Below, piece by piece: positions 1,997 to 23,093 of a stretch of 42,430 nucleotides of DNA (within the stretch, counting starts at the first letter, position 1; each line of letters begins with the position of its first letter). Both the position numbers and the translations under genes were made by a program. The DNA lies in NCBI GenBank assembly GCA_947473125.1, contig CANJDH010000038.1, positions 1-42,430 on the forward strand, in the 5' to 3' direction. The notes under the pieces were generated by a model. That model saw only the letters and a list, made by a program, of their open reading frames with translations, made no database searches and was not told the DNA's origin. Source of the stretch: Burkholderiales bacterium. Lineage in GTDB: Bacteria; Pseudomonadota; Gammaproteobacteria; Burkholderiales; JAEUOS01.

Positions 1997-4183
1997 TCAT
2001 ACCTTTTCAAGTTTGGCGTAGGCGAGCGCCAGCCACTTGACGCCGTTACGCCCGAAGTTGACTTGCAACCTGCCATCCTGGCCCGAGCCTTCGGCATCGA
2101 CGATCACCCCATTGCCAAACTTGGCATGCAGAACATTCTGGCCGATGCGCCATCCGGAATCGCCCGGTGCCTTGGACTTGGCATAGGTTGGCTTCTCGGT
2201 CGCAACAAAATCATCGTCGCCAGCCCACACGGAACCAAAGCGCGGCGTCAGCCACTTCAAGCCCTGCTCGGGAATTTCATTGAGAAATTGCGACTTCGAG
2301 TTGTAGCGGGTCTGGCCGTGCAGCATGCGCGTCTGCGCGAACGACAAATACAGGCGATGGCGCGCACGCGTGATCGCCACATACATCAGGCGCCGCTCTT
2401 CGTCGATGCCATCGAGTTCCTTGGTCGAGTTCTCGTGCGGAAACAGCCCTTCCTCGAGACCGGTGATGAACACCTGGTTGAACTCCAGGCCTTTCGATGA
2501 ATGCACGCTCATCAGTTGCACCGCGTCCTGGCCGGCCTCGGCCTGATTGTCACCCGCTTCGAGCGACGCGTGGGTCAGAAAAGCGATCAGGCTGTCTTCA
2601 TCTTCCTGCGTGAAGTTGGCCGCCGCATTGATCAACTCGTTCAGATTCTCCAGCCGTTCCTGTCCTTCGCGCTCCGCCTTGTAATGGGCGCGCAGGCCGG
2701 AATGGTCGAGCACGTGGTCGATGATTTCCTTCAGCGGCAGGTGTTGCGTCGCCTCGCGCATGCCGTCGATCAGCTTGTTGAATGCCGCGAACGACTGCGC
2801 TGCCTTGCCCTGCGGCAACAGCGGCACCGCGCGATAGAAGGAGATGCCGGCCGGATTGGCCATGTCGCGCGTTTTCGCTGCGTCGTTGAGCTGCTCGAGC
2901 GAGCGCGCACCGATGCCGCGCGCCGGGAAGTTGACGACGCGTGCATACGAGGTGTCGTCGTCGGGGTTGGCGAGCAGGCGCAAATACGCGATCGCGTGTT
3001 TGACCTCGGCGCGCTCGAAAAAGCGCAGGCCGCCGTAGACCTTGTACGGAATGCCCTCCGCGAACAACATCTGCTCGATCACGCGGCTTTGCGCGTTGGA
3101 GCGGTACAGCAGCGCGATTTCGCTGCGCTTCGAACCGTCGGCGATCAGTGCCTTGATTTCGGAAATCAGCCAGCGTGCCTCGTCGAGGTCGGTCTGCGAC
3201 TCGAATACCCGCACCGGCTCGCCATGGCCGGCGTCGGTCCAGAGATTTTTTCCGAGGCGCTGCGCGTTGTTCTTGATCAACGCGTTGGCGGCATCGAGGA
3301 TATGGCCGTGCGAGCGGTAGTTCTGCTCCAGCTTGATCAGGTTCTGCACATGAAAGTCGCGCTCGAAGTCGAGCATGTTGCCGACCCGTGCTCCGCGGAA
3401 CGCGTAGATCGACTGGTCGTCGTCGCCGACCGCGAAGATCGCATTCGCCGTGGCCGGCGCCGCACCTTGAAGACCCGCTCCAGCCAACAGTTTCAGCCAT
3501 TTGTATTGGAGCACGTTGGTATCCTGGAATTCGTCCACCAGGATGTGCTTGAAGCGCGACTGGTAATGTTCGCGCAGCAACTCGTTTTTCAGCAGCAGCT
3601 CGTAGGTGCGCAACAACAGCTCGGCAAAGTCGACCACGCCCTCGCGCTGGCACTGCTCGTCGTAGGCGCGGTAGTACTCGACGCGCTTGCGCCCGAATTC
3701 GTCGTCGGCCTCGACATGCTGGGGGCGCAGCCCGGCGTCCTTGTTGCCATTGATGAAATACATCACTTCCTTGGGCGGATGCTTTTCATCATCGACGTTC
3801 AGCGCCTTGAGCAGGCGCTTGATCGCAGAAAGCTGGTCCGCCGAGTCGAGGATCTGGAACATCGCCGGCAGCCCCGCGTCCTGGTGGTGCGCGCGCAGGA
3901 AGCGGTTGCACAGGCCATGGAAGGTACCGATCCACATGCCGCGCAGGTTGATCGGCAGCATCGCCGAGAGGCGCGCCGTCATTTCCTTGGCAGCCTTGTT
4001 GGTGAACGTGACGGCGAGGATGTTCGCCGGTGTGGCCTGCCCGGTCTGGATCAGCCAGGCGATGCGGGTGGTGAGCACCCGGGTCTTGCCGGAGCCCGCG
4101 CCGGCGAGGATCAATGCGGATTGGTTGGGTAAAGTGACAGCGGCAAACTGTTCCTGGTTCAGATTCGCGAGGAGTTCGGACAT
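1997..4183 (-). CDS. uvrD: UvrD/PcrA-type superfamily 1 DNA helicase
   Basis: ATP-driven 3'-5' DNA helicase of nucleotide-excision and mismatch repair. The 728-residue protein carries all SF1A motifs: Walker A AGAGSGKT at 27-34, FTNKAAKEM (motif Ia) at about 60-68, Walker B DEFQD at 217-221, GDDDQSIYAFRGA at 253-265, then SVHSSKGLEF and YVAITRAR toward the C terminus. It ends in the short Tudor-like tail typical of PcrA/UvrD (NFGRNGVKWLALAYAKLEKV). The ATG at 4183 (MSELLANLNQEQ) is preferred because family homology begins there. A further 96 codons are open upstream, but they run antisense into the divergent amidohydrolase gene and have no family character. No LexA box is visible in the 106-bp divergent gap. 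Rep is a less likely alternative because of the C-terminal tail. Confidence 0.92.
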   Translation of the reverse strand: MSELLANLNQEQFAAVTLPNQSALILAGAGSGKTRVLTTRIAWLIQTGQATPANILAVTFTNKAAKEMTARLSAMLPINLRGMWIGTFHGLCNRFLRAHHQDAGLPAMFQILDSADQLSAIKRLLKALNVDDEKHPPKEVMYFINGNKDAGLRPQHVEADDEFGRKRVEYYRAYDEQCQREGVVDFAELLLRTYELLLKNELLREHYQSRFKHILVDEFQDTNVLQYKWLKLLAGAGLQGAAPATANAIFAVGDDDQSIYAFRGARVGNMLDFERDFHVQNLIKLEQNYRSHGHILDAANALIKNNAQRLGKNLWTDAGHGEPVRVFESQTDLDEARWLISEIKALIADGSKRSEIALLYRSNAQSRVIEQMLFAEGIPYKVYGGLRFFERAEVKHAIAYLRLLANPDDDTSYARVVNFPARGIGARSLEQLNDAAKTRDMANPAGISFYRAVPLLPQGKAAQSFAAFNKLIDGMREATQHLPLKEIIDHVLDHSGLRAHYKAEREGQERLENLNELINAAANFTQEDEDSLIAFLTHASLEAGDNQAEAGQDAVQLMSVHSSKGLEFNQVFITGLEEGLFPHENSTKELDGIDEERRLMYVAITRARHRLYLSFAQTRMLHGQTRYNSKSQFLNEIPEQGLKWLTPRFGSVWAGDDDFVATEKPTYAKSKAPGDSGWRIGQNVLHAKFGNGVIVDAEGSGQDGRLQVNFGRNGVKWLALAYAKLEKV

Positions 4184-4289
4184 CGAGTGGGGGAAAATTG
4201 GCGCCGGTGAGGTCGGCGCGAATGAAGCAGCGGGTAGAATCGAAATTATAGACGCCCGCCTCTGTTCCTCTGAAAGCGACCCGCCGGCA

Positions 4290-5966
4290 ATGCACGATCT
4301 CCTGATCAAAAACGCGCAAATCTTCGATGGCAGTGGTGCTGTCCCCACGCAGGGCGATCTGGCGGTAGCACAGGGCCGTATCGCCGCGCTGGGCGCCGAT
4401 CTGGGCCCGACCCGGCAGACCATCGATGCCACCGGCCTGGCGCTGATGCCCGGCATCATCGACAACCACACGCATTACGACGCGCAAATCACCTGGGATA
4501 ACGGCATCGCGCCCTCCCCTGCGCTCGGGGTGACTACCGCGATCATCGGCAACTGCGGCTTCACCATCGCGCCGTGCCGCCCTGCGGACCGCGAGTTGAT
4601 CATGCGCAATCTCACACAGGTCGAGGGCATGTCGCTCGACGTATTGCGCCAGGGCATTCGCTGGGAGTTCGAATCGATTCCCGAATACCTGGACTTGCTT
4701 GAACGCCAGGGCTCGACCACCAACATCGCCGCCTTTGCGGGACATTCGTCGATCCGTACCTACGTGATGGGCGCGGACGCGCCAAAACGCGCCGCCACCG
4801 CAGCAGAAGTCGACGAGATGAAGGGCATCCTGGAAGAGGCGATGCGCGCTGGTGCGATCGGCTTTGCCACCAGCACCTCTCCTGCCCACAACGGCCACGA
4901 TGGCATTCCGATGCCCTCGCGTCTGGCCGATGACTACGAATTGCGCACGCTGGTGGGCGCGCTCAGGCAGTCCGGGCACGGCGTGTTCATGCTCACCAAA
5001 GGCGGCCACACCAAAATCGAATTCCTCGAGGAACTCAGCGTCGAGTCGGGTCGCCCGGTGGTGATTGCCGCGTTGCTGCACAACAAGACCAATCCCCAGG
5101 CGGTGTTCAACGATCTCGACGCGATTGCTGCGGCCAATTCACGCGGACGAGCCCTCAGCGGCGCCGTTTCATGTTGCGTCCTCACCATGGATTTCACGTT
5201 GCACTCGCCCTATCCGGTCGAAGGTCTGCAATCCTGGAAACCGGCGCTGGGCCTCGCGCCCGACGCGTTCAAGGCAAAGATTGCCAGCCAGGCATTTCGC
5301 GACGCGATGCGCGCCGAGATTGCCGCGCCGACCACATTCCGCCTGTTCAACGGCGAATGGGACCAGGTCCAGGTGGTGGAAGTTGCCGATCCTGCGCACG
5401 CACACTACGAGCAGCGCAGCATCGCCGACCTTGCCCGTGAAGCAGGCCGTGACCCGCTCGACTTCATGTTCGACCTGTCGCTCGCAGAAAACCTCGACAC
5501 GGTTTTCACCGCCACGCTCCTGAATTCGGACGAAGATGCCGTCGGACGCATGCTCAACCATCCGAACAGCCTTGTGAGCCTATCTGACGCCGGTGCACAC
5601 CTGACGTTTTTCAACGATGCCGCATTCGGCCTGCACCTGTTGGGTCATTGGGCGCGCGACCTCCGGAAAATGTCCATGGCCGAGGCGGTGCGCCGCCTCA
5701 CCGGCCAATCGGCAGCAGTCTACGGCATCAAGGAGCGCGGGCTGCTCAAGGCAGGCTACGCCGCCGATCTTCTGCTGTTCGACCCTGCCAGCGTCGGGCG
5801 CGGACCGAAGCGCCGCGTCAACGACCTGCCGGGCGGCGCCGGAAGGCTGCACACCGACGCCATCGGCGTGCACGGCGTGTGGGTCAATGGCGTGCTGGTG
5901 GCTGATGCCGGCGGCCTTACCGGAATGCAGCGGCCCGGCAAATTGTTGCGTGAGTTCTCCGTTTAA
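4290..5966 (+). CDS. Amidohydrolase, N-acyl-D-amino-acid deacylase-like
   Basis: A 558-residue metal-dependent amidohydrolase resembling D-aminoacylase / N-acyl-D-aspartate(glutamate) deacylases, which release D-amino acids from N-acyl derivatives. The N-terminal part is the small beta-sandwich (LLIKNAQIFDGSG), followed by the TIM-barrel start PGIIDNHTHYDAQ with the metal-binding HxH at 60 and 62 and D64. NCGFTIAP follows, and SDAGAH supplies the late catalytic Asp (D433). The C terminus returns to the sandwich (AGYAADLLLFDP). The ATG at 4290 was chosen over a much longer open frame because the family begins with MHDLLIKNA. The gene is divergent from uvrD and is followed by a repeat element and a solute-binding protein gene on the same strand. 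The precise substrate cannot be read from sequence; dihydropyrimidinase-like or other N-acyl substrates remain possible. Confidence 0.8.
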   Translation: MHDLLIKNAQIFDGSGAVPTQGDLAVAQGRIAALGADLGPTRQTIDATGLALMPGIIDNHTHYDAQITWDNGIAPSPALGVTTAIIGNCGFTIAPCRPADRELIMRNLTQVEGMSLDVLRQGIRWEFESIPEYLDLLERQGSTTNIAAFAGHSSIRTYVMGADAPKRAATAAEVDEMKGILEEAMRAGAIGFATSTSPAHNGHDGIPMPSRLADDYELRTLVGALRQSGHGVFMLTKGGHTKIEFLEELSVESGRPVVIAALLHNKTNPQAVFNDLDAIAAANSRGRALSGAVSCCVLTMDFTLHSPYPVEGLQSWKPALGLAPDAFKAKIASQAFRDAMRAEIAAPTTFRLFNGEWDQVQVVEVADPAHAHYEQRSIADLAREAGRDPLDFMFDLSLAENLDTVFTATLLNSDEDAVGRMLNHPNSLVSLSDAGAHLTFFNDAAFGLHLLGHWARDLRKMSMAEAVRRLTGQSAAVYGIKERGLLKAGYAADLLLFDPASVGRGPKRRVNDLPGGAGRLHTDAIGVHGVWVNGVLVADAGGLTGMQRPGKLLREFSV

Positions 5967-12951: not shown

Positions 12952-15900
12952 CTAGTGAAAGTTGCGCGCCGTCGTACCCAGCCGCCCAAGCAATGCCGTA
13001 TGGTCAAACAGGCGCCGTGCCACCAGGTTGAGCACAATCCCCTGCCGCTGCAACTGGCCATACACGCCTAACAGCCGTGCAGACAGCAGCTCGCGCCGCT
13101 GCAGTTCCACCAGATCGCGCCACACAATCACGTTGATCGAGCCGGTTTCGTCTTCCAGGGTGACGAACACCGTACCTTTGGCGGTGCCGGGGCGCTGGCG
13201 GCAGGTGACGATGCCGCTGACGCGCACCCAGGCCCGGTCCGGCAATTGCCCGATGCGTTCGGCGGTGAGATGCTTCGCAAGCCGCGGACGTAGTAGCGCG
13301 AGCGGGTGGCGCCGCAGCGTGAGCCCGGTGGCGGCATAGTCCATCACGATCTCGTGCCCCTCGGCGGCTGCCACCAGATCGGCTGCGCTGCTGTCGGGGC
13401 GGATGGTGATGGTGCGGTTGATCGTGCGTGTGATCCCGCGGTCATCGATCGTGCCATCGACATGACCCTCCAGGGCCAGCGCTGTCTCCAACCCCAGCGC
13501 CTGCCAATACGCCTCACGCCGATGCCCGGCCAGAGTGAGAAAGGCATCGGCGCGCGCCAGGGCATCCATGTCGCACCGCTGCAGGCCGACGCGCTGTTTC
13601 AGGTCGGCAATATCCTGGAATGGTGCACTGGCTCGCGCTGCTACGATGGCCAAGCCCGCTTCGCGTGCCAATCCATCAACCAGCCGAAAACCCAGTCTCA
13701 GAGCGGGTCTTGGCGCATTACCTGTCTCATTAGTTAGGACATTGAACATCGCATTCGTCATGGCATCTGCCACTTCGAGCGCGCAATCCCAATCACTCGC
13801 CGTCACATCGACGGCACGCACGGTGACGCCATGGCGTTGCGCATCCTGCACCAACTGTGACGGCGCATAAAACCCCATCGGCTGGGAGTTGAGCAGGCCA
13901 CAGGCAAACGCCGCCGGGTGGTGGCACTTGAGCCAGCACGATACATACACCAGCAGCGCAAAGCTGGCTGCGTGTGATTCCGGAAAACCATACTCCCCAA
14001 AACCCTGGATCTGCTTGTACAAACTCTCGGCAAACTCCGGCGTATAGCCGTTCTGCGCCATGCCGGCGAGCATCTTGTCGCGAAATGGCGCCAGCCCCCC
14101 CTTGCGCTTCCAGGCGGCCATGGCGCGGCGCAACTGGTCCGACTCGCCCGGCGTGAAGTTGGCCGCGGCCACCACCAGTTGCATCGCCTGTTCCTGAAAA
14201 ATCGATACACCGAGAGTGCGCTCGAGCACCCCGCGCACCGTTTCGCTCGGGTAACTCACCGGCTCCAGACCCTGGCGCCGGCGCAGATACGGATGCACCA
14301 TGCCGCCCTGGATCGGCCCGGGCCGCACAATCGCCACTTCAATCACCAGATCGTAAAAGCAGCGCGGCAGCAAGCGCGGCAACATACTCATCTGGGCGCG
14401 CGATTCAATCTGGAACACCCCTACCGTGTCAGCCTTGCAGACCATGTCGTACACCACCGGGTCTTCAGCGGGAATGTCCTCGACGCGCATCGCCTGTTCC
14501 GCATCACGGCCCTGAAACACATTGAGCACGTCGAGCGTGCGCCGAATCGCCGTGAGCATGCCCAGCGCCAGCACATCGACTTTCAGCAGACCGAGAGTGT
14601 CAAGGTCGTCCTTGTCCCACTGGATCACCGTGCGTTCCGGCATGGCGGCGTTTTCGATCGGCACCAGTTCCGAGAGTGGGCCGGCGGCGATCACGAATCC
14701 GCCCACATGCTGCGAGAGATGGCGCGGAAAGCCGATCAACTCGCGCGTCAGCTGCAGGGTCTGGCGAATCGCCGGGCTGTGCGCATCGAGCCCGACTTCG
14801 GCAAGACGCGCCTCGACCGAACTAATGTCATCCCACCATTGCACTGTCTTGGCCAGTTGTTCGGCCTGCTCGATCGAGAGCCCCAGCGCCTTGCCGACAT
14901 CCTTCAAGGCCGAGCGCGGCCGGTAAGTGGTGAGTGAGGCAGCCAGCGCGGTGCGCTCGCGCCCGTATTTACGGTAGAGATACTGAATCACCTCTTCACG
15001 CCGCTCGTGTTCGAAATCGACGTCAATGTCGGGCGGCTCGTTGCGCTCCTTGGAGATAAAGCGCTCGAACAGCACCTGGATGCGCCCGGGGTCGATCTCG
15101 GTGATGCCCAGGCAATAGCACACTGCCGAATTGGCCGCCGACCCCCGCCCCTGACACAAAATGCCCTGCCCGCGCGCAAAACCCACGATGTCATGCACCG
15201 TCAGGAAGAACGGCTCATACGCCAGATCGCGAATCAGCAGCAGTTCACGCTCGATCAGCGCCACCACGCTCACCGGTACGTGCGCGGTGCTGCCATCACT
15301 GCCCACCACGGCGGTGTGCGCCACGCCTTCGAGCTTCTTGCCGCCCTGCATGCGCGCCGAGATCGACGGACGGGCATAGCGCCCCACCAGGCCATCAAAG
15401 GTAAGACGGCGCAGATGGCTGGCCGGGGTTTCACCGGGCGGCACGATTTCCTGTGGGTATTCATAGCGCAATTCATCGAGACTGAAGCGGCAGCGGTCGG
15501 CAATGACCAAGGTCTCGGCCATCAGCTCGGGCGGATACAAATCAGCGATCGCATTGATCGGCCGCAGCGCCTGCTCGGCATTGGGTTGCGCGTCCAGCCC
15601 CAGTTCGGCAAGCGGCTTGCGCAGGCGAATTGCCGTCAAGACATCTTGCAAAGGTTTGCGGCGCTTCTCGTGCATCAGCACATGGCCGGTGGCGACTGCC
15701 GGCAGACCTGCCGTCGTTGCCAGCGCCATCGCCTGTGCAAATGCACGCATGTCATCGGCCCCCTTGAGTTGCTCGACGGCAATCCAGAGCGCTACCGGAA
15801 AACACGCCTTAAGCACGCGTAGCGCGTCATCCGGCCAAGCCATCTGGGACAGCATGACGCACAAGCAATCGGTCATCGGCTGCGCAGCAAGGTCAACCAT

Positions 15901-16227
15901 GCGCAGGCAATAACGTCCCTTGACCGCACGCCGCCGCGCCTGCGTGATCAGGGCGCACAGCCGGGCATAGCCGCGCCGCGAGGCGGCGAGCAGCACCAGC
16001 TTGCCGCCATCTTCGAGCGTGAACTCGCTACCGATGATCAGCTTGAGCTTGGTGCTCTTGGCTGCCACGTGGGCGCGCACCACCCCCGAGACCGTGCATT
16101 CATCGGTGATCGCCAGCGCCGTGTAACCGAGCAGACTGGCGCGCGCCACCAGCTCTTCGGGGTGTGAGGCACCGCGCAGAAAGCTGAAGTTGCTCAGCGC
16201 GTGGAGCTCGGCATAGTCAGGTTTCAT
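12952..16227 (-). CDS. dnaE2: Error-prone DNA polymerase DnaE2
   Basis: Alpha-subunit-type (C-family) translesion polymerase that acts with ImuA and ImuB in SOS mutagenesis. The 1091-residue protein opens with the PHP domain (ELHALSNFSFLRGASHPEE, ITDECTVSG) and carries the catalytic PDIDVDFEH at 399-407. A third palm Asp lies in GLLKVDVLALGML, helix-hairpin-helix and OB-fold regions follow, and it ends RRLFDHTALLGRLGT. It is in line with the family length apart from an apparent extra stretch of about 30 residues near 286-320 (glycine/serine/valine-rich) between the PHP and palm parts. It lies 27 bp downstream of imuB on the same strand, so both are probably expressed from the LexA-regulated promoter at 18.0 kb. 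Confidence 0.94.
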   Translation of the reverse strand: MKPDYAELHALSNFSFLRGASHPEELVARASLLGYTALAITDECTVSGVVRAHVAAKSTKLKLIIGSEFTLEDGGKLVLLAASRRGYARLCALITQARRRAVKGRYCLRMVDLAAQPMTDCLCVMLSQMAWPDDALRVLKACFPVALWIAVEQLKGADDMRAFAQAMALATTAGLPAVATGHVLMHEKRRKPLQDVLTAIRLRKPLAELGLDAQPNAEQALRPINAIADLYPPELMAETLVIADRCRFSLDELRYEYPQEIVPPGETPASHLRRLTFDGLVGRYARPSISARMQGGKKLEGVAHTAVVGSDGSTAHVPVSVVALIERELLLIRDLAYEPFFLTVHDIVGFARGQGILCQGRGSAANSAVCYCLGITEIDPGRIQVLFERFISKERNEPPDIDVDFEHERREEVIQYLYRKYGRERTALAASLTTYRPRSALKDVGKALGLSIEQAEQLAKTVQWWDDISSVEARLAEVGLDAHSPAIRQTLQLTRELIGFPRHLSQHVGGFVIAAGPLSELVPIENAAMPERTVIQWDKDDLDTLGLLKVDVLALGMLTAIRRTLDVLNVFQGRDAEQAMRVEDIPAEDPVVYDMVCKADTVGVFQIESRAQMSMLPRLLPRCFYDLVIEVAIVRPGPIQGGMVHPYLRRRQGLEPVSYPSETVRGVLERTLGVSIFQEQAMQLVVAAANFTPGESDQLRRAMAAWKRKGGLAPFRDKMLAGMAQNGYTPEFAESLYKQIQGFGEYGFPESHAASFALLVYVSCWLKCHHPAAFACGLLNSQPMGFYAPSQLVQDAQRHGVTVRAVDVTASDWDCALEVADAMTNAMFNVLTNETGNAPRPALRLGFRLVDGLAREAGLAIVAARASAPFQDIADLKQRVGLQRCDMDALARADAFLTLAGHRREAYWQALGLETALALEGHVDGTIDDRGITRTINRTITIRPDSSAADLVAAAEGHEIVMDYAATGLTLRRHPLALLRPRLAKHLTAERIGQLPDRAWVRVSGIVTCRQRPGTAKGTVFVTLEDETGSINVIVWRDLVELQRRELLSARLLGVYGQLQRQGIVLNLVARRLFDHTALLGRLGTTARNFH

Positions 16228-16254: not shown

Positions 16255-17838
16255 TCAGGCAAAAAAGCCGTGCAGATACCAGCCACCGCGCGCCAGGTCG
16301 TGAAACACCCACAAGGTTTCGCCCTCGCGATTGGCCATCACGTAGTAATCGCGCCGTGCGGGCGCGCCATCCCACCAGCCGGTTTCGATGCGCTCCGGCC
16401 CGGCCAGGTGGCGCAAGGCACCGCGATGCACCGGCTCGCCCTGCAGCAGGATCAACGAGCGCGGCTGGCGCAGCAGCCAGATCGGCCGCGGCGGCGCTAC
16501 GCTCGCCGGCAAGAGCTGCCGTAGCGGTGCACTGTTTACCGACAAGGGCAACCGCGACAGCGCCTTCCCCTCACCTTCCGCCTTACGCCCCACCACACGA
16601 TGCGGCCGATACGCTTTGCGCTCCTCCTTCACACCGTGCACTACCTCGTGCGACGCCCTTTCAGGCCGATGATCGCTGCCCTCCTCCACCATCAATATCG
16701 ACCCAGCCCCCATGCGCGCCAGCAATTGCTCGGCCAGCAAATCGATATTGCTCGCGCGTGAACCTGCATCCGGGAAAAACCCGCCACTGGGTGGCTGGTA
16801 CACCTGCATGTCAGTCAATGTCAGGCCTACCGCGCACACCGTGTCTTCAAGCGGCTGGCGCGCCAGTTGCTCGCGCAGCAGCCGGCTCCAGCGCCGCACA
16901 TCACGCGCCGGCTCGCGCGTGCCGACCATCAGCGGCGTGGCGCGGTGCCGGCCATGCTCCAGATTCAACTCCATGCGCGTCGTGGCCTGCCCGCGCGCGC
17001 GCAAGAAATCATCGGCCTCGGCAAACAATAGTTCAGCCGCATGCAGCACCTGGGCACTGTCGGTGGTTTCGCACACCAGCTCAAGCCGGGTGGTGAAACC
17101 CTCGGGCAAGGCCAGCGGCGTGCGCGGATCGGCGCGTTCGCCGAGAATCGCTTCAATATCACGCACAACCTCCACACCAAAGCGGCGCGCAATGCCATCA
17201 CGCGGCAGGCGCGCCAGATCACCGAAACGCGCAATGCCCAGCGCCGCCAGCGCATCGGTCACCTTCTGCGGCCAGCCAGTGAGCGCCAGCGGCACCTTCG
17301 CCAGCGTCTCCGGCAAAGCCTCAAGCCGCCGCACATGCTGCACCTCAACCCCGCAAGCGCGCGCATGCGCCAGCAGCCAAGCCGCACGCGGCGTCGGCGC
17401 ACAAGCCGCCACGGCACGCACCTCGGCACGCCGCACCTCGCGCTTGATGCGATTGGCCAAAGCCTTGAGGCCGCGAAACAGCATCAGGCTCGGCGCCACT
17501 TCAAGCAGCACCGCATCGGGCGCCAGCGCCACCATCGGCGAAAAATTGAGCGCCACCAACCCCACGCGCTGCTGCAGCGCCGCCTCGCGCGCAAGCTCAC
17601 GCCGCCACACCACAAGATCAGCCACCAGCGCCCGCGCCGCACCCAGCGCCATGCCGGTACAAATGCCGCAATCGCGCGCCGCCTCATTGGCTGCCAGAAT
17701 CAATGGCCGCTCGTCAGGCCCATCGATCACCGCAAACGGCACATCGACCAGCAAGCCGCGCCCGGCCGCCTGCAAGGGCAGTTCCGGCAAAAACAGCGCA
17801 ATCCAGAGAGGCTTGGCCACGTCCATGCCACCTGGCAC
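16255..17838 (-). CDS. imuB: ImuB, Y-family polymerase-like SOS mutagenesis protein
   Basis: ImuB is a catalytically inactive relative of Y-family polymerases that bridges DnaE2 and the sliding clamp. The 527-residue protein starts with WIALFLPELPLQAAGRG, lacking the acidic residue of active Y-family enzymes. It continues through a palm/fingers region with LEVAPSLMLFRGL, a helix-hairpin-helix region (ALAALGIARFGDLARLPRDGIARRFG) and a long C-terminal domain ending DYYVMANREGETLWVFHDLARGGWYLHGFFA-like. The GTG at 17838 is preferred: GGAG lies 7 nt ahead and the codon follows the stop of the mini-imuA frame by 1 nt. An ATG at 17826 is the alternative. The normal full-length imuA partner is missing here and lies at 20784-21611 instead. 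Confidence 0.9.
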   Translation of the reverse strand: MPGGMDVAKPLWIALFLPELPLQAAGRGLLVDVPFAVIDGPDERPLILAANEAARDCGICTGMALGAARALVADLVVWRRELAREAALQQRVGLVALNFSPMVALAPDAVLLEVAPSLMLFRGLKALANRIKREVRRAEVRAVAACAPTPRAAWLLAHARACGVEVQHVRRLEALPETLAKVPLALTGWPQKVTDALAALGIARFGDLARLPRDGIARRFGVEVVRDIEAILGERADPRTPLALPEGFTTRLELVCETTDSAQVLHAAELLFAEADDFLRARGQATTRMELNLEHGRHRATPLMVGTREPARDVRRWSRLLREQLARQPLEDTVCAVGLTLTDMQVYQPPSGGFFPDAGSRASNIDLLAEQLLARMGAGSILMVEEGSDHRPERASHEVVHGVKEERKAYRPHRVVGRKAEGEGKALSRLPLSVNSAPLRQLLPASVAPPRPIWLLRQPRSLILLQGEPVHRGALRHLAGPERIETGWWDGAPARRDYYVMANREGETLWVFHDLARGGWYLHGFFA

Positions 17839-17839
17839 G

Positions 17840-17980
17840 TCACCGCTCCGGCAAGGGGTAACGCCGCCCGGCCAGCGGCACCATGATCAGCAACAGCGAG
17901 GGTAATGACGCAGACAGTGGTGATGGATCACCAGTGCGCCAGGCGGCGGAGCGCTGAAACAATTCTTGCAAGGGTGACAC
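17840..17980 (-). pseudogene. Mini-imuA: in-frame internally deleted ImuA, 46 codons
   Basis: Starts with GTG at 17980 and ends with TGA at 17840, one base before the imuB start. Residues 1-18 (VSPLQELFQRSAAWRTGD) match residues 1-18 of the full-length ImuA at 21611 at 15 of 18 positions. The last 13 residues (VPLAGRRYPLPER) match its C terminus at 11 of 13. About 230 codons of the middle are gone, yet the frame is kept. It retains the upstream LexA-controlled promoter and the tight spacing to imuB, so it would still be translated and could couple translation into imuB. The RecA-like core is absent, so it cannot act as ImuA. It could be a decayed relic or a retained leader; the sequence cannot distinguish these. 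Confidence 0.85.
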
Positions 17981-18011
17981 GGCGTGTTCGGCTCTTCGGG
18001 GGAAGGGCTGC

Positions 18012-18036
18012 ACAGTATAACTGTAATTTTGTACAG
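18012..18036 (-). promoter_or_regulatory. LexA (SOS) box and -10 of the mini-imuA/imuB/dnaE2 operon
   Basis: CTGTAATTTTGTACAG at 18021-18036 is a perfect CTGT-N8-ACAG LexA box, extended to the dyad AACTGT...ACAGTT. On the - strand a TATACT -10 hexamer (18014-18019) overlaps its downstream edge, about 34 bp ahead of the GTG of mini-imuA, so LexA binding would cover the promoter. An additional ACAGT-ATA-ACTGT dyad spans 18012-18024. Confidence 0.88.
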
Positions 18037-18081
18037 TTATTAATTGGCAATGAACAAAGCCTCAATTTCTATCACAGGCAT

Positions 18082-18155
18082 GGCCTGAAAGCTTTGGTGG
18101 GAGCAGGTCTCAAAGGATTAGTGATGAAAACCTTTGGTGCGTGCGGGTTACAGAG
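18082..18155 (+). repeat. Interspersed repeat, copy b (two half-units)
   Basis: GGCCTGAAAGCTTTGGTGGGAGCAGG begins the element. The first TTGGTGGGAGC starts at 18094 and the second half-unit, TTGGTGCGTGCGGGTTAC, starts at 18134, 40 nt later. It lies between the LexA box and the hydrolase fragment, and it supplies the last codons of that fragment's frame. Confidence 0.7.
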
Positions 18156-18730
18156 ACTTTCTGAAGTGCTCGCTTTGTACCAAATACAAACTCCTGCCAG
18201 AGGCTAACCTTTCGATAGAACGAATGCGGCGCCCCAGGGAATATGTGGCTGGTGGCCAGTCCGCTCCTTTCAAGTGCGCGCAGATTGCCTTCAATGTGGT
18301 AAACGCTGTAGTAGCTGTCCGCGGTTCCGTAGAAAGAAATTATCGGAACTTTTATTTTTTTACCAAACTCTTCGAACAAGGTTCTGTTGAAATCGGCGTA
18401 ACAGCGCTCTGGATACCACCCGCCGGAGAAGTTGATTACTTCAGTTATACCGGGAAGGCCTTCTGCAGCCAGCGCTAGAGACAAGAAGCCTCCTCGTGAC
18501 TGCCCCATAAGGGTGATATTCATTAAGTCAAGGTCTGTCCGTCCTTCCAGTGCTTTAAGCACCGCCCTCGTGTCCAAAATGGCCGATTTGAGACCCGCAA
18601 TTGAGGCGGAGTAGTTGTTGCAAGAGATGGGCTCGCTTGAGTCTACTCTTACTTCTGAAGGAGGCCTTCCTTTGACATTGAATCCCTTTCGAATCGGGAG
18701 AAGGAAGGCGTACGGCCTATAGGGGGCAGG
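18110..18730 (-). pseudogene. 5'-truncated alpha/beta hydrolase (dienelactone-hydrolase-like)
   Basis: A frame open from 18730 to a TGA at 18110 encodes the C-terminal two thirds of an alpha/beta hydrolase. It shows RPYAFLLPIRKGF, the nucleophile elbow GQSRGG, NFSGGWY, a late Asp in FYGTADSYYS, and a catalytic His in PGAPHSF. Conserved sequence starts without any ATG or GTG and a stop lies immediately upstream (18731-18733), so the N-terminal part with the oxyanion hole is lost. The only internal start, TTG at 18577, would leave 155 residues lacking the first strands. The last 15 or so residues are encoded by the interspersed repeat. Base composition is visibly less GC-rich than the flanking genes, suggesting transfer. 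Confidence 0.7.
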
Positions 18731-18836
18731 TCACATCCAGCCAGCTTATCGGCTTGCCGGCCTTCCATCAAGTCCTCCCGCGTCTTGTTTGCAAGACACG
18801 GCGCAGATTGCAAAAAGCCGCTGCCAATGGTATCCT

Positions 18837-18853
18837 TGTATTACAGCAATACA
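18837..18853 (+). promoter_or_regulatory. Probable operator of the toxin-antitoxin pair
   Basis: TGTATT-N5-AATACA is a perfect 6-bp dyad ending 12 bp ahead of the antitoxin ATG, with an AAGGAA ribosome-binding site immediately after. Ribbon-helix-helix antitoxins usually repress their own promoter through such dyads. A second hairpin-like dyad, GTCTTG-N4-CAAGAC, lies at 18782-18797. Confidence 0.5.
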
Positions 18854-18865
18854 CAAGGAATCGTC

Positions 18866-19105
18866 ATGGCAGTTTCCGTTCGTCTCGATCCCGTAATCGA
18901 AGCCAAACTCACCCAGCAGGCCACGTTGCTGGGCATCACCAAATCCGATTTCATCAAAGACGCCATCGAACGTGTGCTGGGAATAAAAAATCCCGCCACC
19001 CTGCTCAAGCAGGTACGTAGCAATGGCAAGATGGGTCGGCCGCACGCTTCGGCCAATGTCTCCGCAACGATGAAGGCCCGGTTGCGTGCGAAACGTCCTG
19101 ATTGA
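18866..19105 (+). CDS. Ribbon-helix-helix (CopG-like) antitoxin
   Basis: A 79-residue protein with the RHH fold at its N terminus: the strand MAVSVRLDPVIEAKL, then the helix-turn-helix QATLLGITKSDFIKDAIERVL. A basic C-terminal tail would bind and inhibit the toxin. The ATG at 18866 is chosen for its AAGGAA ribosome-binding site and because the RHH strand must be near the N terminus. Its 3' end overlaps the PIN-domain gene by 20 bases, the usual arrangement for co-translated toxin-antitoxin pairs. Autoregulation through the dyad at 18837 is inferred. Confidence 0.82.
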   Translation: MAVSVRLDPVIEAKLTQQATLLGITKSDFIKDAIERVLGIKNPATLLKQVRSNGKMGRPHASANVSATMKARLRAKRPD

Positions 19106-19505
19106 CGCCGGCCCGCTGGTTGCGCTGTTTGCTACCGACGATGCCCACCATGTCCGTTACGACCGGCTCGTCAGCGATGCCTCTGCAGAGGGCTTGAGAC
19201 TCGTCACCACGTGGCCGTGCATCGTCGAGGCCTCCTACATCCTCGACGCACCCTGGCGGTTTGAATTGCTGCACTGGATCGAACAAGGCGGCGTGCAGGT
19301 GTTCCCGTTTGACCCGTCGCATCTCGCGGTGATGCTGCCGTGGATGCGCCGCTACACCGAAAAAACCAAGCGCGACATGGACCTCGCGGATGCCTCGCTG
19401 CTTTGGCTTGCGTCTGAGACTGGCTTGCGCGAAATCATGACCATTGATGTGAAGGACTTTGCGCGCTACAGGCTGCCCGATGGCGCGGCCTTGATGCTGC
19501 TCTGA
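19086..19505 (+). CDS. PIN-domain (VapC-like) toxin ribonuclease
   Basis: A 139-residue PIN-domain protein, presumably a metal-dependent RNase toxin neutralised by the RHH protein encoded just upstream. The acidic active-site set is complete: D7 in VLIDAGPLVAL, E48 in CIVEASYIL, D99/D102 in DMDLADASLL and D121 in TIDVKDF. The start is GTG at 19086, inside the antitoxin gene. The length is normal for VapC, so the toxin appears intact. RNA target unknown. Confidence 0.85.
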   Translation: MRNVLIDAGPLVALFATDDAHHVRYDRLVSDASAEGLRLVTTWPCIVEASYILDAPWRFELLHWIEQGGVQVFPFDPSHLAVMLPWMRRYTEKTKRDMDLADASLLWLASETGLREIMTIDVKDFARYRLPDGAALMLL

Positions 19506-19561
19506 ACGGCCATCACCGTCACCGGCCATGACGGTCCAAATGGGGTTTCCCTGATTTGCGT

Positions 19562-19632
19562 ATGGCCTGAAAGCCTTGGTGGGAGCGGGTCTCAGAGCAC
19601 TATTGATGGAAACCGTTGATACCGGGCGGGTA
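19562..19632 (+). repeat. Interspersed repeat, copy c (two half-units)
   Basis: TGGCCTGAAAGCCTTGGTGGGAGCGGGTCTCAG region: first TTGGTGGGAGCGGG at 19576, diverged second half-unit (TTGATACCGGGCGGG) at 19616, again 40 nt apart. It lies in the 264-bp gap between the PIN toxin and the SOUL protein, in which I see no gene. Confidence 0.65.
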
Positions 19633-19769
19633 TCGGATCGGGAGCGCACATCAACGACGACGGTTTTCACGGTTCCACCTCGCAATATCGGCGTTGAAAT
19701 CAGTTGATCGGGTGTGGAGAAATCTTCTCAAAATTCGTGCGCAGCCCCTACTCCCCCTACGCTCTATCT

Positions 19770-20441
19770 CTACTCAACAGTAAGCAAAATCTCGTTGCGC
19801 CGAAACGGCGGCGGCGTGAGCGGCGGGTTGTAGCGCGCCAGTTGTGCGGTGCCAATTGGCTTCAGGGTATTTTTCGCTACCCACAGATTGAGCTCTGCAG
19901 TTTTTTCTGCGACCTTGGTTTCGCCCGAGAATCCGGAAAAGCGATGAACGGCCACACGTTGCGGCGCAATCTGGCGCAGCGTGACGGCGGGATTTTTGGG
20001 TGTCGGCAGGGACTCAAGGGTATATTTTCCCGGCATCACAAAATGCATGCGCCAGCGATCCGGCGTGGAGCCCGGTTCCATCGTGACCGGGGCGGTCATC
20101 GCGATCTTTTCACCGTCACGCGGATTCCCCGCAGCGGTTTCGGGTGCCATGGTGACGGGTGCGGTCATGGCAATTTTTTCACTCGATGATGCGCCCTTGC
20201 TCGTATTGGCACCAAAAATATAACCGGCAATGGCACGAAAGCCATCACCCCCGGCGCGATCGAGCGAACCCGAAACGGTCGTTTCGGCGACGATCATCGA
20301 CCGGTACAAGCGAATCTCGAAATCACCTTCCTGCTTGATAACGGTGTACGCGGGCTCTTCGATGTTGGCGATCGCGTCGATGGTGGCGCAGCCGGACAAA
20401 AACACTGTGGCCGACAGGGCAATGGCAAATTTTGCTTTCAT
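19770..20441 (-). CDS. SOUL-family heme-binding lipoprotein
   Basis: A 223-residue outer- or inner-membrane-anchored lipoprotein. The signal peptide ends in the lipobox LSGC (Cys about residue 18), followed by a SOUL/HBP domain (EPAYTVIKQEGDFEIRLYRS, then KIAMTAPVTM and the C-terminal NPPLTPPPFRRNEILLTV). The family binds heme or tetrapyrrole in eukaryotes; the bacterial role is poorly known. The motif EKIAMTAPVTM occurs twice, about 24 residues apart, within an acidic/glycine-rich insert. The start ATG at 20441 is dictated by the signal peptide. It sits on the strand opposite to the toxin-antitoxin pair and has no obvious partner gene. Confidence 0.87.
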   Translation of the reverse strand: MKAKFAIALSATVFLSGCATIDAIANIEEPAYTVIKQEGDFEIRLYRSMIVAETTVSGSLDRAGGDGFRAIAGYIFGANTSKGASSSEKIAMTAPVTMAPETAAGNPRDGEKIAMTAPVTMEPGSTPDRWRMHFVMPGKYTLESLPTPKNPAVTLRQIAPQRVAVHRFSGFSGETKVAEKTAELNLWVAKNTLKPIGTAQLARYNPPLTPPPFRRNEILLTVE

Positions 20442-20624
20442 GGGTCATCCGGACAAGTTGTTGGAATATGACAGGGGCCGGCGTAAAAGAGTTCAAACAA
20501 GGATAGAAGGATGGGGCACCGGGAGTGCATGGAGATCGATCTGCGACCACCAAGCTTGCTACAGTTAGAGGGTAGGCATAGATAGAGATGACGGAACTAT
20601 CTCGCCCTCGGAACAAGTTGCAAG

Positions 20625-20699
20625 CTACGCCATCACCGCACAAGGCTCAATCTCACGTTCAATCGTCTTGCCCGCAGGCATGCCATTGACGATAGCCAT
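20625..20699 (-). CDS. Possible 24-residue small protein or gene scrap
   Basis: MAIVNGMPAGKTIEREIEPC followed by AVMA and a stop. An AAGGAA sequence lies 6 nt ahead of the ATG and it begins 12 bp after the stop of the fragment at 20712, as a downstream gene of an operon would. It may be the start of a gene whose remainder was lost. No family recognised. Confidence 0.3.
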   Translation of the reverse strand: MAIVNGMPAGKTIEREIEPCAVMA

Positions 20700-20711
20700 A
20701 TCAAGTTCCTT

Positions 20712-20783
20712 TCAGCGGTAATCGACAATCGCGACGTTGGCGGCTTCGCCACCGTCGAACTTGAAGCAGACTCTCGATTGATA
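20712..20783 (-). pseudogene. C-terminal scrap of an unknown gene abutting imuA
   Basis: Directly after the imuA stop the same frame continues as YQSRVCFKFDGGEAANVAIV, then DYR and a stop. It has no start codon and looks like the tail of a gene cut at the imuA junction. The protein family is not recognised; it could also be chance. Confidence 0.35.
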
Positions 20784-21611
20784 TCACCGCTCGGGCAAGG
20801 GATAACGCCGCTCGACCAGTGGCACCTTGATCGACGAAGGCACAGTTACTGGTGGCCGTACCGGCCCCAGCGCCGGCTTCTCCAGCCCGGCTGACTCCGC
20901 GCGCGGCACCCACGCCCCCTTTTGTGACGCATCCTGCGGCACCTTTTCCGGCATCCCCACCTGCGGCTGCGTCAACAAATCCGCCCAACGGTTCGACGCC
21001 GTTTCCAGACACAACATGCGCGAGGTGGCAAAGCCGCGCCGTTTCAACAGATTGACCGCCAGCCGCCCCTGCACCGGGTTCAACTCCAGCCGCAGCGCCG
21101 CCGGCGATGCCGTCCGCGCAGCCGCACGCGGGCGATACACAAACCCGGCGCAATTGCCATGGGCCGCGGCCAGTTGCAGGCGCCGCAACGCCGCGTAATC
21201 GACCTGGGCGCCCAGCCACAGCACTGCCATGGCACAGGCACCATCGCGCAAGATGCGCTCGGCCGCCCACAAGGCCACGGCGGGTTTCTCGGGCTGCACC
21301 AGCAACAGACGCTGCGGCTCGACGCCATCGGCGGTCAGGCGCGGTGCATACGGCATGTGCGGCGGCGCCACCCAGGCAACCGTCTCGCCCTCACCCGTCA
21401 GCCGGGCCAGTGCGGGCAGCATCAGCGCCAGTTCACCAATGCCGGTGTGGTCGCACAACAACTCGGTCAACGCCCCGCGCGGCCAGCCGCCATCGGGCAG
21501 CTCGCGGTCAAGGGAGGTAAAGCCGGTGGCCAGGCCATCCGTGCGCGGTGGCGGGCGATCACCAATGCGCCAGACGGCGGAGCGCTGAAACAGTTCCTGC
21601 AGGGTAGACAC
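20784..21611 (-). CDS. imuA: Full-length ImuA (SulA/RecA-like SOS mutagenesis protein)
   Basis: ImuA is the RecA-like accessory partner of ImuB and DnaE2. The 275-residue protein starts with a GTG at 21611 (MSTLQELFQRSAVWRIGD) and continues with the RecA-like core (TGFTSLDRELPDGGWPRGALTELL, VAWVAPPHMPYAPRL, ACAMAVLWLGAQVDYAALRRLQLAA). It ends in VPLVERRYPLPER. The canonical Walker A is degenerate, as expected of ImuA. Gene order is unusual: it is normally followed by imuB, but here it is followed by gene scraps, a SOUL gene and a toxin-antitoxin pair, and imuB begins about 2.9 kb downstream. It has its own LexA-type promoter. A proline-rich linker near residues 225-262 precedes the conserved tail. 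Confidence 0.86.
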   Translation of the reverse strand: MSTLQELFQRSAVWRIGDRPPPRTDGLATGFTSLDRELPDGGWPRGALTELLCDHTGIGELALMLPALARLTGEGETVAWVAPPHMPYAPRLTADGVEPQRLLLVQPEKPAVALWAAERILRDGACAMAVLWLGAQVDYAALRRLQLAAAHGNCAGFVYRPRAAARTASPAALRLELNPVQGRLAVNLLKRRGFATSRMLCLETASNRWADLLTQPQVGMPEKVPQDASQKGAWVPRAESAGLEKPALGPVRPPVTVPSSIKVPLVERRYPLPER

Positions 21612-21645
21612 GATGTGTGCAGCTCTTCGGGAAGAACGGTCGCAC

Positions 21646-21668
21646 AGTATAACTATATTTTTTTACAG
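21646..21668 (-). promoter_or_regulatory. Degenerate LexA box and -10 of the full-length imuA
   Basis: CTATATTTTTTTACAG at 21653-21668 keeps the CTGT-N8-ACAG spacing but with CTAT in one half-site. On the - strand a TATACT -10 (21646-21651) stands in the same place as in the mini-imuA promoter, and the flanking GCACAGTATAACT is identical in both. LexA binding is predicted to be weaker than at 18021. Confidence 0.65.
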
Positions 21669-21709
21669 CTATCAGCTTATGTCTGAAGATGACGACCATC
21701 TCCCGATTC

Positions 21710-22693: not shown

Positions 22694-23093
22694 ATTTACT
22701 CTCTCCGTTGTGGCGGATACGCCTCGTTCTTTGTTTTTGCTGGCCAGGCAAGCGAGCATCGGCCAGTCTGCGGTGCACGATACACCAACCGGTCAACGTC
22801 GACGAATGGAGTCTGGATCTTCATAGCGACACGGCCTGAGCCCTTTGGTGGAAGCGGGTCTTGGCCATTTTTTTCATGAAACCCGTTGGTGCAGGCGGGT
22901 CACAGAAGCATCATGACTCGCGGAATTCCAGTTCGCCAACTGCCAACGATGGCGACTCGCTGGCCACATGTAACGACGAATTGAACCTGCATCATCTGGG
23001 CACCGTTAAGGAAACGCATACGTCGGCGTTCCTGACTGCCTGACGCAACTGCTTGCCGGGCGAGCGCTGCAAGCGTGGCGCAGGAAATCCCGG
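22694..23093. other. 400-bp gene-free stretch
   Basis: Holds the leader of the Bug gene at its left end and interspersed repeat copy d at 22829-22910. I see no supported coding sequence in the rest, which lies ahead of the 3' end of the AllA-like gene. Confidence 0.5.
22829..22910 (+). repeat. Interspersed repeat, copy d (two half-units)
   Basis: CGGCCTGAGCCCTTTGGTGG leads the element. The half-units TTGGTGGAAGCGGGTC at 22845 and TTGGTGCAGGCGGGTCACAG at 22886 are 41 nt apart, with ATGAAACCCG before the second unit as in copy b. Confidence 0.68.

Follow-up and report, generated by a model that had tools for sequence, protein, structure and literature searches.

The genes imuA, imuB and dnaE2 are known as a LexA-controlled operon (imuABC), and the locus described here raises the question of what remains of such an operon, and why, when its first gene has been reduced to a shell. 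The window, by which we mean the whole stretch of 42,430 nucleotides that was analysed, carries on its minus strand a short frame, mini-imuA, followed in order by imuB and dnaE2, while an intact imuA lies about 2.7-3 kb upstream of the short frame. The genes concerned are the following.

Positions 17980 to 17840, minus strand: mini-imuA, a GTG start followed by 45 codons and a TGA (46 codons plus stop).
Positions 16255 to 17838, minus strand: imuB, 527 aa, IMS/Y-family (PF00817), the only imuB match in its own genome.
Positions 12952 to 16227, minus strand: dnaE2, 1091 aa, error-prone polymerase (NF004225, 1397 bits, cut-off 939).
Positions 20784 to 21611, minus strand: intact imuA, 275 aa (NF033429 ImuA, 211.9 bits, cut-off 150).

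The own genome of this locus is a draft of 209 contigs, in which the only other match to the intact ImuA was RecA, on contig 80; the draft holds a single intact ImuA and a single ImuB. The two imuA copies are separated by DNA of different composition, with several genes of its own.

Positions 18041 to 20783: DNA between the imuA copies, GC 0.548 as against 0.688 in the intact imuA.
Positions 19770 to 20441, minus strand: SOUL gene.
Positions 18785 to 19505, plus strand: RelB-like/PIN pair, the RelB-like match being weak and below its cut-off.
Positions 18110 to 18577, minus strand: dienelactone-hydrolase fragment, covering positions 82-192 only of the 217 of the family.

The last of these frames is likely to be a gene fragment, beside what resembles a toxin-antitoxin pair. 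We also observed a dispersed short intergenic repeat at 18079-18148, 19561-19631 and 22830-22900 of the window, and a 131-nt query around its first copy matched 8 places on 7 contigs of the own genome.

The first-pass annotation had described mini-imuA as an imuA gutted in frame, and this description was reproduced by direct comparison with the intact, 275-residue ImuA: 15 of the 18 N-terminal and 11 of the 13 C-terminal residues are identical, and the loss given there as about 230 codons was measured as a net 229, with the frame open throughout. The GTG start, the perfect LexA box at 18021-18036 and the TGA one base before the imuB GTG were likewise found as described. At the DNA level, the resemblance falls into two blocks.

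Positions 17926 to 18040, minus strand: 5' homology block with the SOS box, the leader and codons 1-18; identity to the 5' region of the intact imuA (21557-21672) is 83%.
Positions 17840 to 17888, minus strand: 3' homology block, 88% identical over 49 nt to the end of the intact imuA (20784-20832).

This two-block homology is not due to chance, the 5' block having been matched to 21672-21557 with an E value of 1.8e-26 in a DNA search of the own genome. It begins about 4 nt ahead of the LexA box and ends with the stop codon, and DNA comparison found no sequence common to the two loci beyond the two blocks. Between the blocks lies a junction of about 15 codons with no clear counterpart in the intact imuA, and the longest exact run shared by the two copies, read off the DNA alignment, is 18 nt. 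Judged from these alignments, mini-imuA is what is left of a second imuA copy that has diverged from the intact one (DNA identity 82-88%). Because the homology spans the LexA box to the stop codon, the sequence that was kept coincides with the regulatory need: its 5' block contains the SOS box, the -10 region and the start region.

The regulatory elements ahead of the two copies are listed below.

Positions 18021 to 18036: perfect LexA (SOS) box, CTGT-N8-ACAG (CTGTACAAAATTACAG, read on the minus strand), within the promoter spacer.
Positions 18014 to 18043, minus strand: sigma-70-like promoter, TTAATA-18-TATACT, a consensus match only.
Positions 21653 to 21668: LexA-like box ahead of the intact imuA, imperfect by one mismatch, at the homologous position.

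One promoter-like pair was found, where shuffled sequence had a mean of 0.2; its TTAATA starts at 18043 and its TATACT ends at 18014, so that the CTGTN8ACAG box lies between the hexamers and overlaps the promoter, as it does in LexA-controlled operons. Sites with one mismatch to the LexA motif are as common in shuffles as in the window (mean 10.7, against 11 found), and the box of the intact imuA is therefore supported by its homologous position alone. Elsewhere in the own genome, a box with one mismatch (TTGTACGTATGTACAG) precedes recA; it is one of two such sites there against 0.36 expected, and 11 of 200 shuffles reach two. One LexA match is encoded, and the lexA gene is preceded by a weak one-mismatch site only, of a kind present in 59 of 200 shuffles. 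As lexA's own site is weak, the evidence for the SOS motif in this species comes from recA, from the box of mini-imuA and from the literature; CTGTN8ACAG is given as the SOS box of beta- and gammaproteobacteria, and placed ahead of an imu operon, in excerpts of PMC4151985.

A narrower form of the LexA motif occurs at five distinct sites in the own genome. At one place on contig 30 (43444-43459; L150, 1045-1060), a perfect CTGTATTTTTATACAG box was observed 16 nt before a frame of 134 aa with no NCBIfam match. This frame is followed by a 108-aa helix-turn-helix protein with antitoxin matches below the cut-off, and the pair is possibly an SOS-controlled toxin-antitoxin system.

At the other end of mini-imuA, the frame runs almost directly into imuB.

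Positions 17849 to 17846, minus strand: GGAG, a putative Shine-Dalgarno sequence of imuB, in the last codons of the mini frame and 7 nt ahead of the imuB GTG.
Positions 17842 to 17840, minus strand: TGA of mini-imuA.
Position 17839: the single base between the two frames.
Positions 17838 to 17836, minus strand: GTG of imuB.

The stop of the short frame thus adjoins the next start, which is the arrangement seen in coupled leaders, and at the same place the displaced intact imuA reads CGAG instead of GGAG.

In order to see how common such a junction is, we used imu loci of relatives, numbered L004 to L112 (109 in all). L085 was dropped, being the same place as L004, and so were L052, L059, L076 and L094, which had no imuA match (in L052, L059 and L094 imuB lies near the sequence end), leaving 104 loci, which may contain repeats of one species. 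With distances measured to codon 11 of imuB, the imuA stop lies within 60 nt of this codon or overlaps it in 60 of the 104 loci, whereas the gap is 61-300 nt in 38 and exceeds 300 nt in 6. By the same measure, imuA and imuB overlap or abut in all four of the other genomes of the same family (L086, L100, L105 and L106). From these 60 loci and the four genomes, we conclude that imuA and imuB lie close together more often than not and that the mini frame preserves this arrangement. Base pairing between the start regions, considered as a regulatory device, was given no weight: the regions are predicted to pair (z -1.59, with 8 of 200 shuffles folding as well), and 21% of 276 control pairs are predicted to pair equally well.

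The first-pass annotation had offered two uses for the remnant, a leader that couples translation into imuB and a peptide that binds a partner of ImuA, and the evidence separates them. The leader proposal fits the anatomy, namely the promoter with its LexA box, the start regions, the putative Shine-Dalgarno sequence inside the frame and the tight spacing of stop and start, and ribosomes would then hand over at the mini-imuA/imuB junction. The binding peptide is not supported, for reasons given below. We consider it probable, though well short of certain, that the gene shell has been retained because it serves imuB-dnaE2 as a leader under SOS control, rather than for any protein that it encodes. 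The sequence of events may have been as follows. The ancestral imuA would have been duplicated, or a sister copy regained, mini-imuA being the copy at the ancestral place before imuB. DNA would then have built up between the copies, leaving the intact imuA alone upstream, preceded by an imperfect SOS-like box of its own. The redundant copy before imuB, freed from making ImuA, could have lost its RecA-like core by deletion, and what was retained would be what imuB-dnaE2 need: the LexA-controlled promoter, the start region and the 3' end with the putative Shine-Dalgarno sequence and the stop-start junction. Upon DNA damage, LexA would fall and the promoter would fire; ribosomes translating the short frame would probably hand translation to imuB, and ImuA would be supplied in trans, the short peptide itself presumably being inactive.

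A leader of this kind is the most likely explanation, and the next is that mini-imuA is a pure relic, a decaying pseudogene of which only the LexA box and promoter matter, with imuB starting on its own Shine-Dalgarno sequence. We regard this as a serious alternative, but a clearly less probable one. Survival of the frame is weak evidence, as one third of 900 simulated deletions in the intact imuA were in frame and open, so that an in-frame deletion had one chance in three. The relic explanation also gains from the fact that imuB has a GGAG of its own, from a near-invariant hydrophobic position of ImuA that has already changed in the mini peptide, and from the lack of a second case among the 104 loci. 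Nevertheless, 46 codons have stayed without a stop or frameshift although the kept blocks have diverged by 12-18% from their intact counterparts, and synonymous changes are in excess: the 30 comparable kept codons show 7 synonymous and 5 non-synonymous differences (raw values of 0.29 and 0.076 per site, respectively). This excess suggests some constraint on the peptide and was for that reason also counted against the leader, although much of the substitution history may predate the gutting and stem from the time when the copy was whole.

If the peptide is under constraint, it could be functional, either through an N-terminal arm competing at RecA or at ImuA-ImuB interfaces, or as a small hydrophobic SOS peptide. 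We consider this unlikely. Residues 4-18 of ImuA align without gaps to the N-terminal oligomerisation segment of RecA, and against the fused RecA chain 3cmu the score is 30.0 bits for the units whose alignment starts at query residue 4, compared with 23.2 bits for the first unit, whose alignment does not start until residue 24. Two positions of this segment have changed in the mini peptide, however. Residue 13 is Ala (V13A), where 103 of 104 ImuAs have Ile, Val or Leu, and residue 16 is Thr (I16T), a residue found there in none of the 104, so that the mini peptide lacks the conserved hydrophobic residues of the RecA-NT oligomerisation motif. We take these two positions to line up with Ile26 and Leu29 of RecA (RecA numbering). 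Furthermore, PMC6511836 reports no clustering of the RecA-NT motif of Y-family tails with the N-termini of RecA homologues, a collection that included ImuA.

The predicted model of the intact ImuA has a confident fold at about residues 21-200; residues 2-8 form a short helix near the N-terminus, and the tail beyond about residue 211 is modelled with low confidence. The NCBIfam ImuA model covers residues 13-193. The RecA-like core (about 21-200) is absent from the mini frame, which has clear counterparts only for residues 1-18 and 263-275. Scanned as a longer frame of 57 aa, the mini frame gave no Pfam match at an E value of 0.001, nor did it give an NCBIfam match at this threshold, and the cut-off of NF033429 (ImuA, 150 bits) was not reached. 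The C-terminal match was rejected as a protein motif, as 74-98 of the 104 ImuAs have no residue at its last 13 alignment columns. For the mycobacterial ImuA', excerpts of PMC11791113 give a predicted ImuB-binding site at G97-M144, and the equivalent part of the core is lost in mini-imuA. The same excerpts mention an earlier two-hybrid study in which an N-terminal interaction region was sought and not found, and in which a 40-residue C-terminal deletion seemed to abolish binding, with a caution that folding might have been lost. With the RecA-like core gone, residues 13 and 16 altered and a C-terminal tail that is no conserved motif, the proposed binding of an ImuA partner finds no support, and the mini peptide, which has no family match, looks non-functional as a piece of ImuA.

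The junction gives the mini peptide a hydrophobic middle (residues 20-38), which the intact copy lacks, with a mean of 1.51 over 19 residues that is reached by 4.4% of 1784 open 46-mers of the window, and the hydropathy of its best 15 residues is reached by 2.0% of them. The usual cut-off for membrane helices is 1.6, and the value of 1.51 falls just below it. A single-sequence model of the peptide has two helices, at moderate confidence (pLDDT 77, pTM 0.39). A new SOS microprotein could be imagined, with an arm resembling the RecA segment and a new hydrophobic segment, that would be produced alongside ImuB and would modulate ImuA-ImuB, RecA or the membrane in the SOS response; we hold this to be a slim possibility, and nothing favours it over the leader. 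An assembly or sequencing artefact at 17840-17980 is the least probable explanation of all. The genome is a draft in 209 contigs, but both blocks of mini-imuA differ by 12-18% from the intact copy and are joined by codons without a clear counterpart there, a combination that would not result from collapsing a single intact gene or from a chimera of it.

We then asked whether relatives carry anything similar. In each of the 104 loci we scanned for a second imuA N-terminal block with the first 18 ImuA residues of that locus, placed by alignment to the ImuA of the window; the scan took in the imuA-imuB DNA where this was at least 60 nt long (54 of the 104) and, for all 104, the DNA upstream of imuA, up to 3 kb and often much less. 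No locus had a second block within this range, and the best ratio to the self-match was 0.41, compared with 0.84 for the window. Apart from L004, the loci with gaps above 300 nt (five of the six) showed no second imuA-like stretch at an E value of 0.01, and a weak ImuA match about 1.5 kb upstream of imuB in L065, one of 12 chosen loci (E 8e-4), was taken as chance. The gap of about 1.5 kb in L018 (4440-5960) was seen to hold mutually repetitive frames, a stretch of unread bases and a frame of 111 aa, which resembles a DUF559-type endonuclease.

Close relatives of this genome were looked for at several levels. At the level of the genus only the own genome was found, and there was no near relative among 60 relatives' genomes (own included). 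In a DNA search of 369 genomes of the class, 8 matched besides the own, with matches of 24-44 nt only; among the best 80 of 277 relatives in a search of genome contigs, none exceeded 39% identity in its best segment, and all of 667 plasmid records stayed below 60%. Taking the 60 genomes and the contigs together, the best ImuB identity was 39-41%. A xenologous origin of the intact imuA was also considered and rejected, with no sign of a distant source, although a sister copy may have been regained. In the ImuA tree, the protein of the window pairs with its L004 counterpart (support 0.94) within nine loci that group together (0.60). These nine are also a clade in the ImuB tree (0.96), with low support for its inner order (0.12-0.37), and so surround both proteins.

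L004 (the same place as G019) carries, at 4114-5835, a C-terminal piece of imuA before imuB, together with a complete imuA and a REP-associated tyrosine transposase. As in the present locus, the intact imuA is displaced from imuB, in L004 by about 1.2 kb, and part of an imuA lies in the intervening DNA. However, the fragment there is C-terminal, without the imuA N-terminus, and stands beside the transposase; it is 96.5% identical over 115 nt and then mostly diverged. The kept part and the neighbours being different, we rejected L004 as an instance of the same event. Since L004 has a separate and different partial duplication, the imuA-imuB junction has been disturbed more than once.

Among known systems, the imuABC operon is the closest, with the same order of imuB and dnaE2, a CTGTN8ACAG box, one ImuA, one ImuB and a DnaE2; it differs in that the first gene here has 46 codons and the intact imuA is separate upstream. 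Split imu cassettes, in which each gene has its own locus and SOS box, are similar in that imuA stands here apart from imuB-dnaE2, with an SOS-like box of its own. According to excerpts of PMC3901139, almost all configurations of the imu cassette exist, but an imuA remnant kept at the old place, as here, is absent from the descriptions given in them. Short leader frames whose translation is coupled to that of the following gene are known more generally. Mini-imuA shares with them the short frame with its own start region, the stop by the next start and a putative downstream Shine-Dalgarno sequence inside the frame, and differs in deriving from a gutted gene and in that its translation and coupling are putative. 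TisB is a small hydrophobic peptide under LexA control. Like TisB, mini-imuA is a short frame behind an SOS promoter and has a hydrophobic stretch; unlike it, it derives from imuA, leads an operon and has a hydropathy just below the membrane-helix cut-off. The open-access imu literature searched, as far as its excerpts go, shows split and rearranged cassettes and variants without imuA and describes no gutted imuA leader, which is no proof of absence.

The imu operon with a gutted imuA at its head is a new form of a known operon, and it suggests that an operon can lose the product of its first gene and yet keep the regulation and the translation start on which its later genes rely, the shell of the gene serving as a leader. 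Should the peptide prove functional after all, a gutted repair gene would have given rise to a new SOS microprotein. If, instead, the coupling of the leader to imuB holds, nature would have provided here a test of whether it is translation of the frame upstream that imuB requires, as opposed to ImuA in cis.
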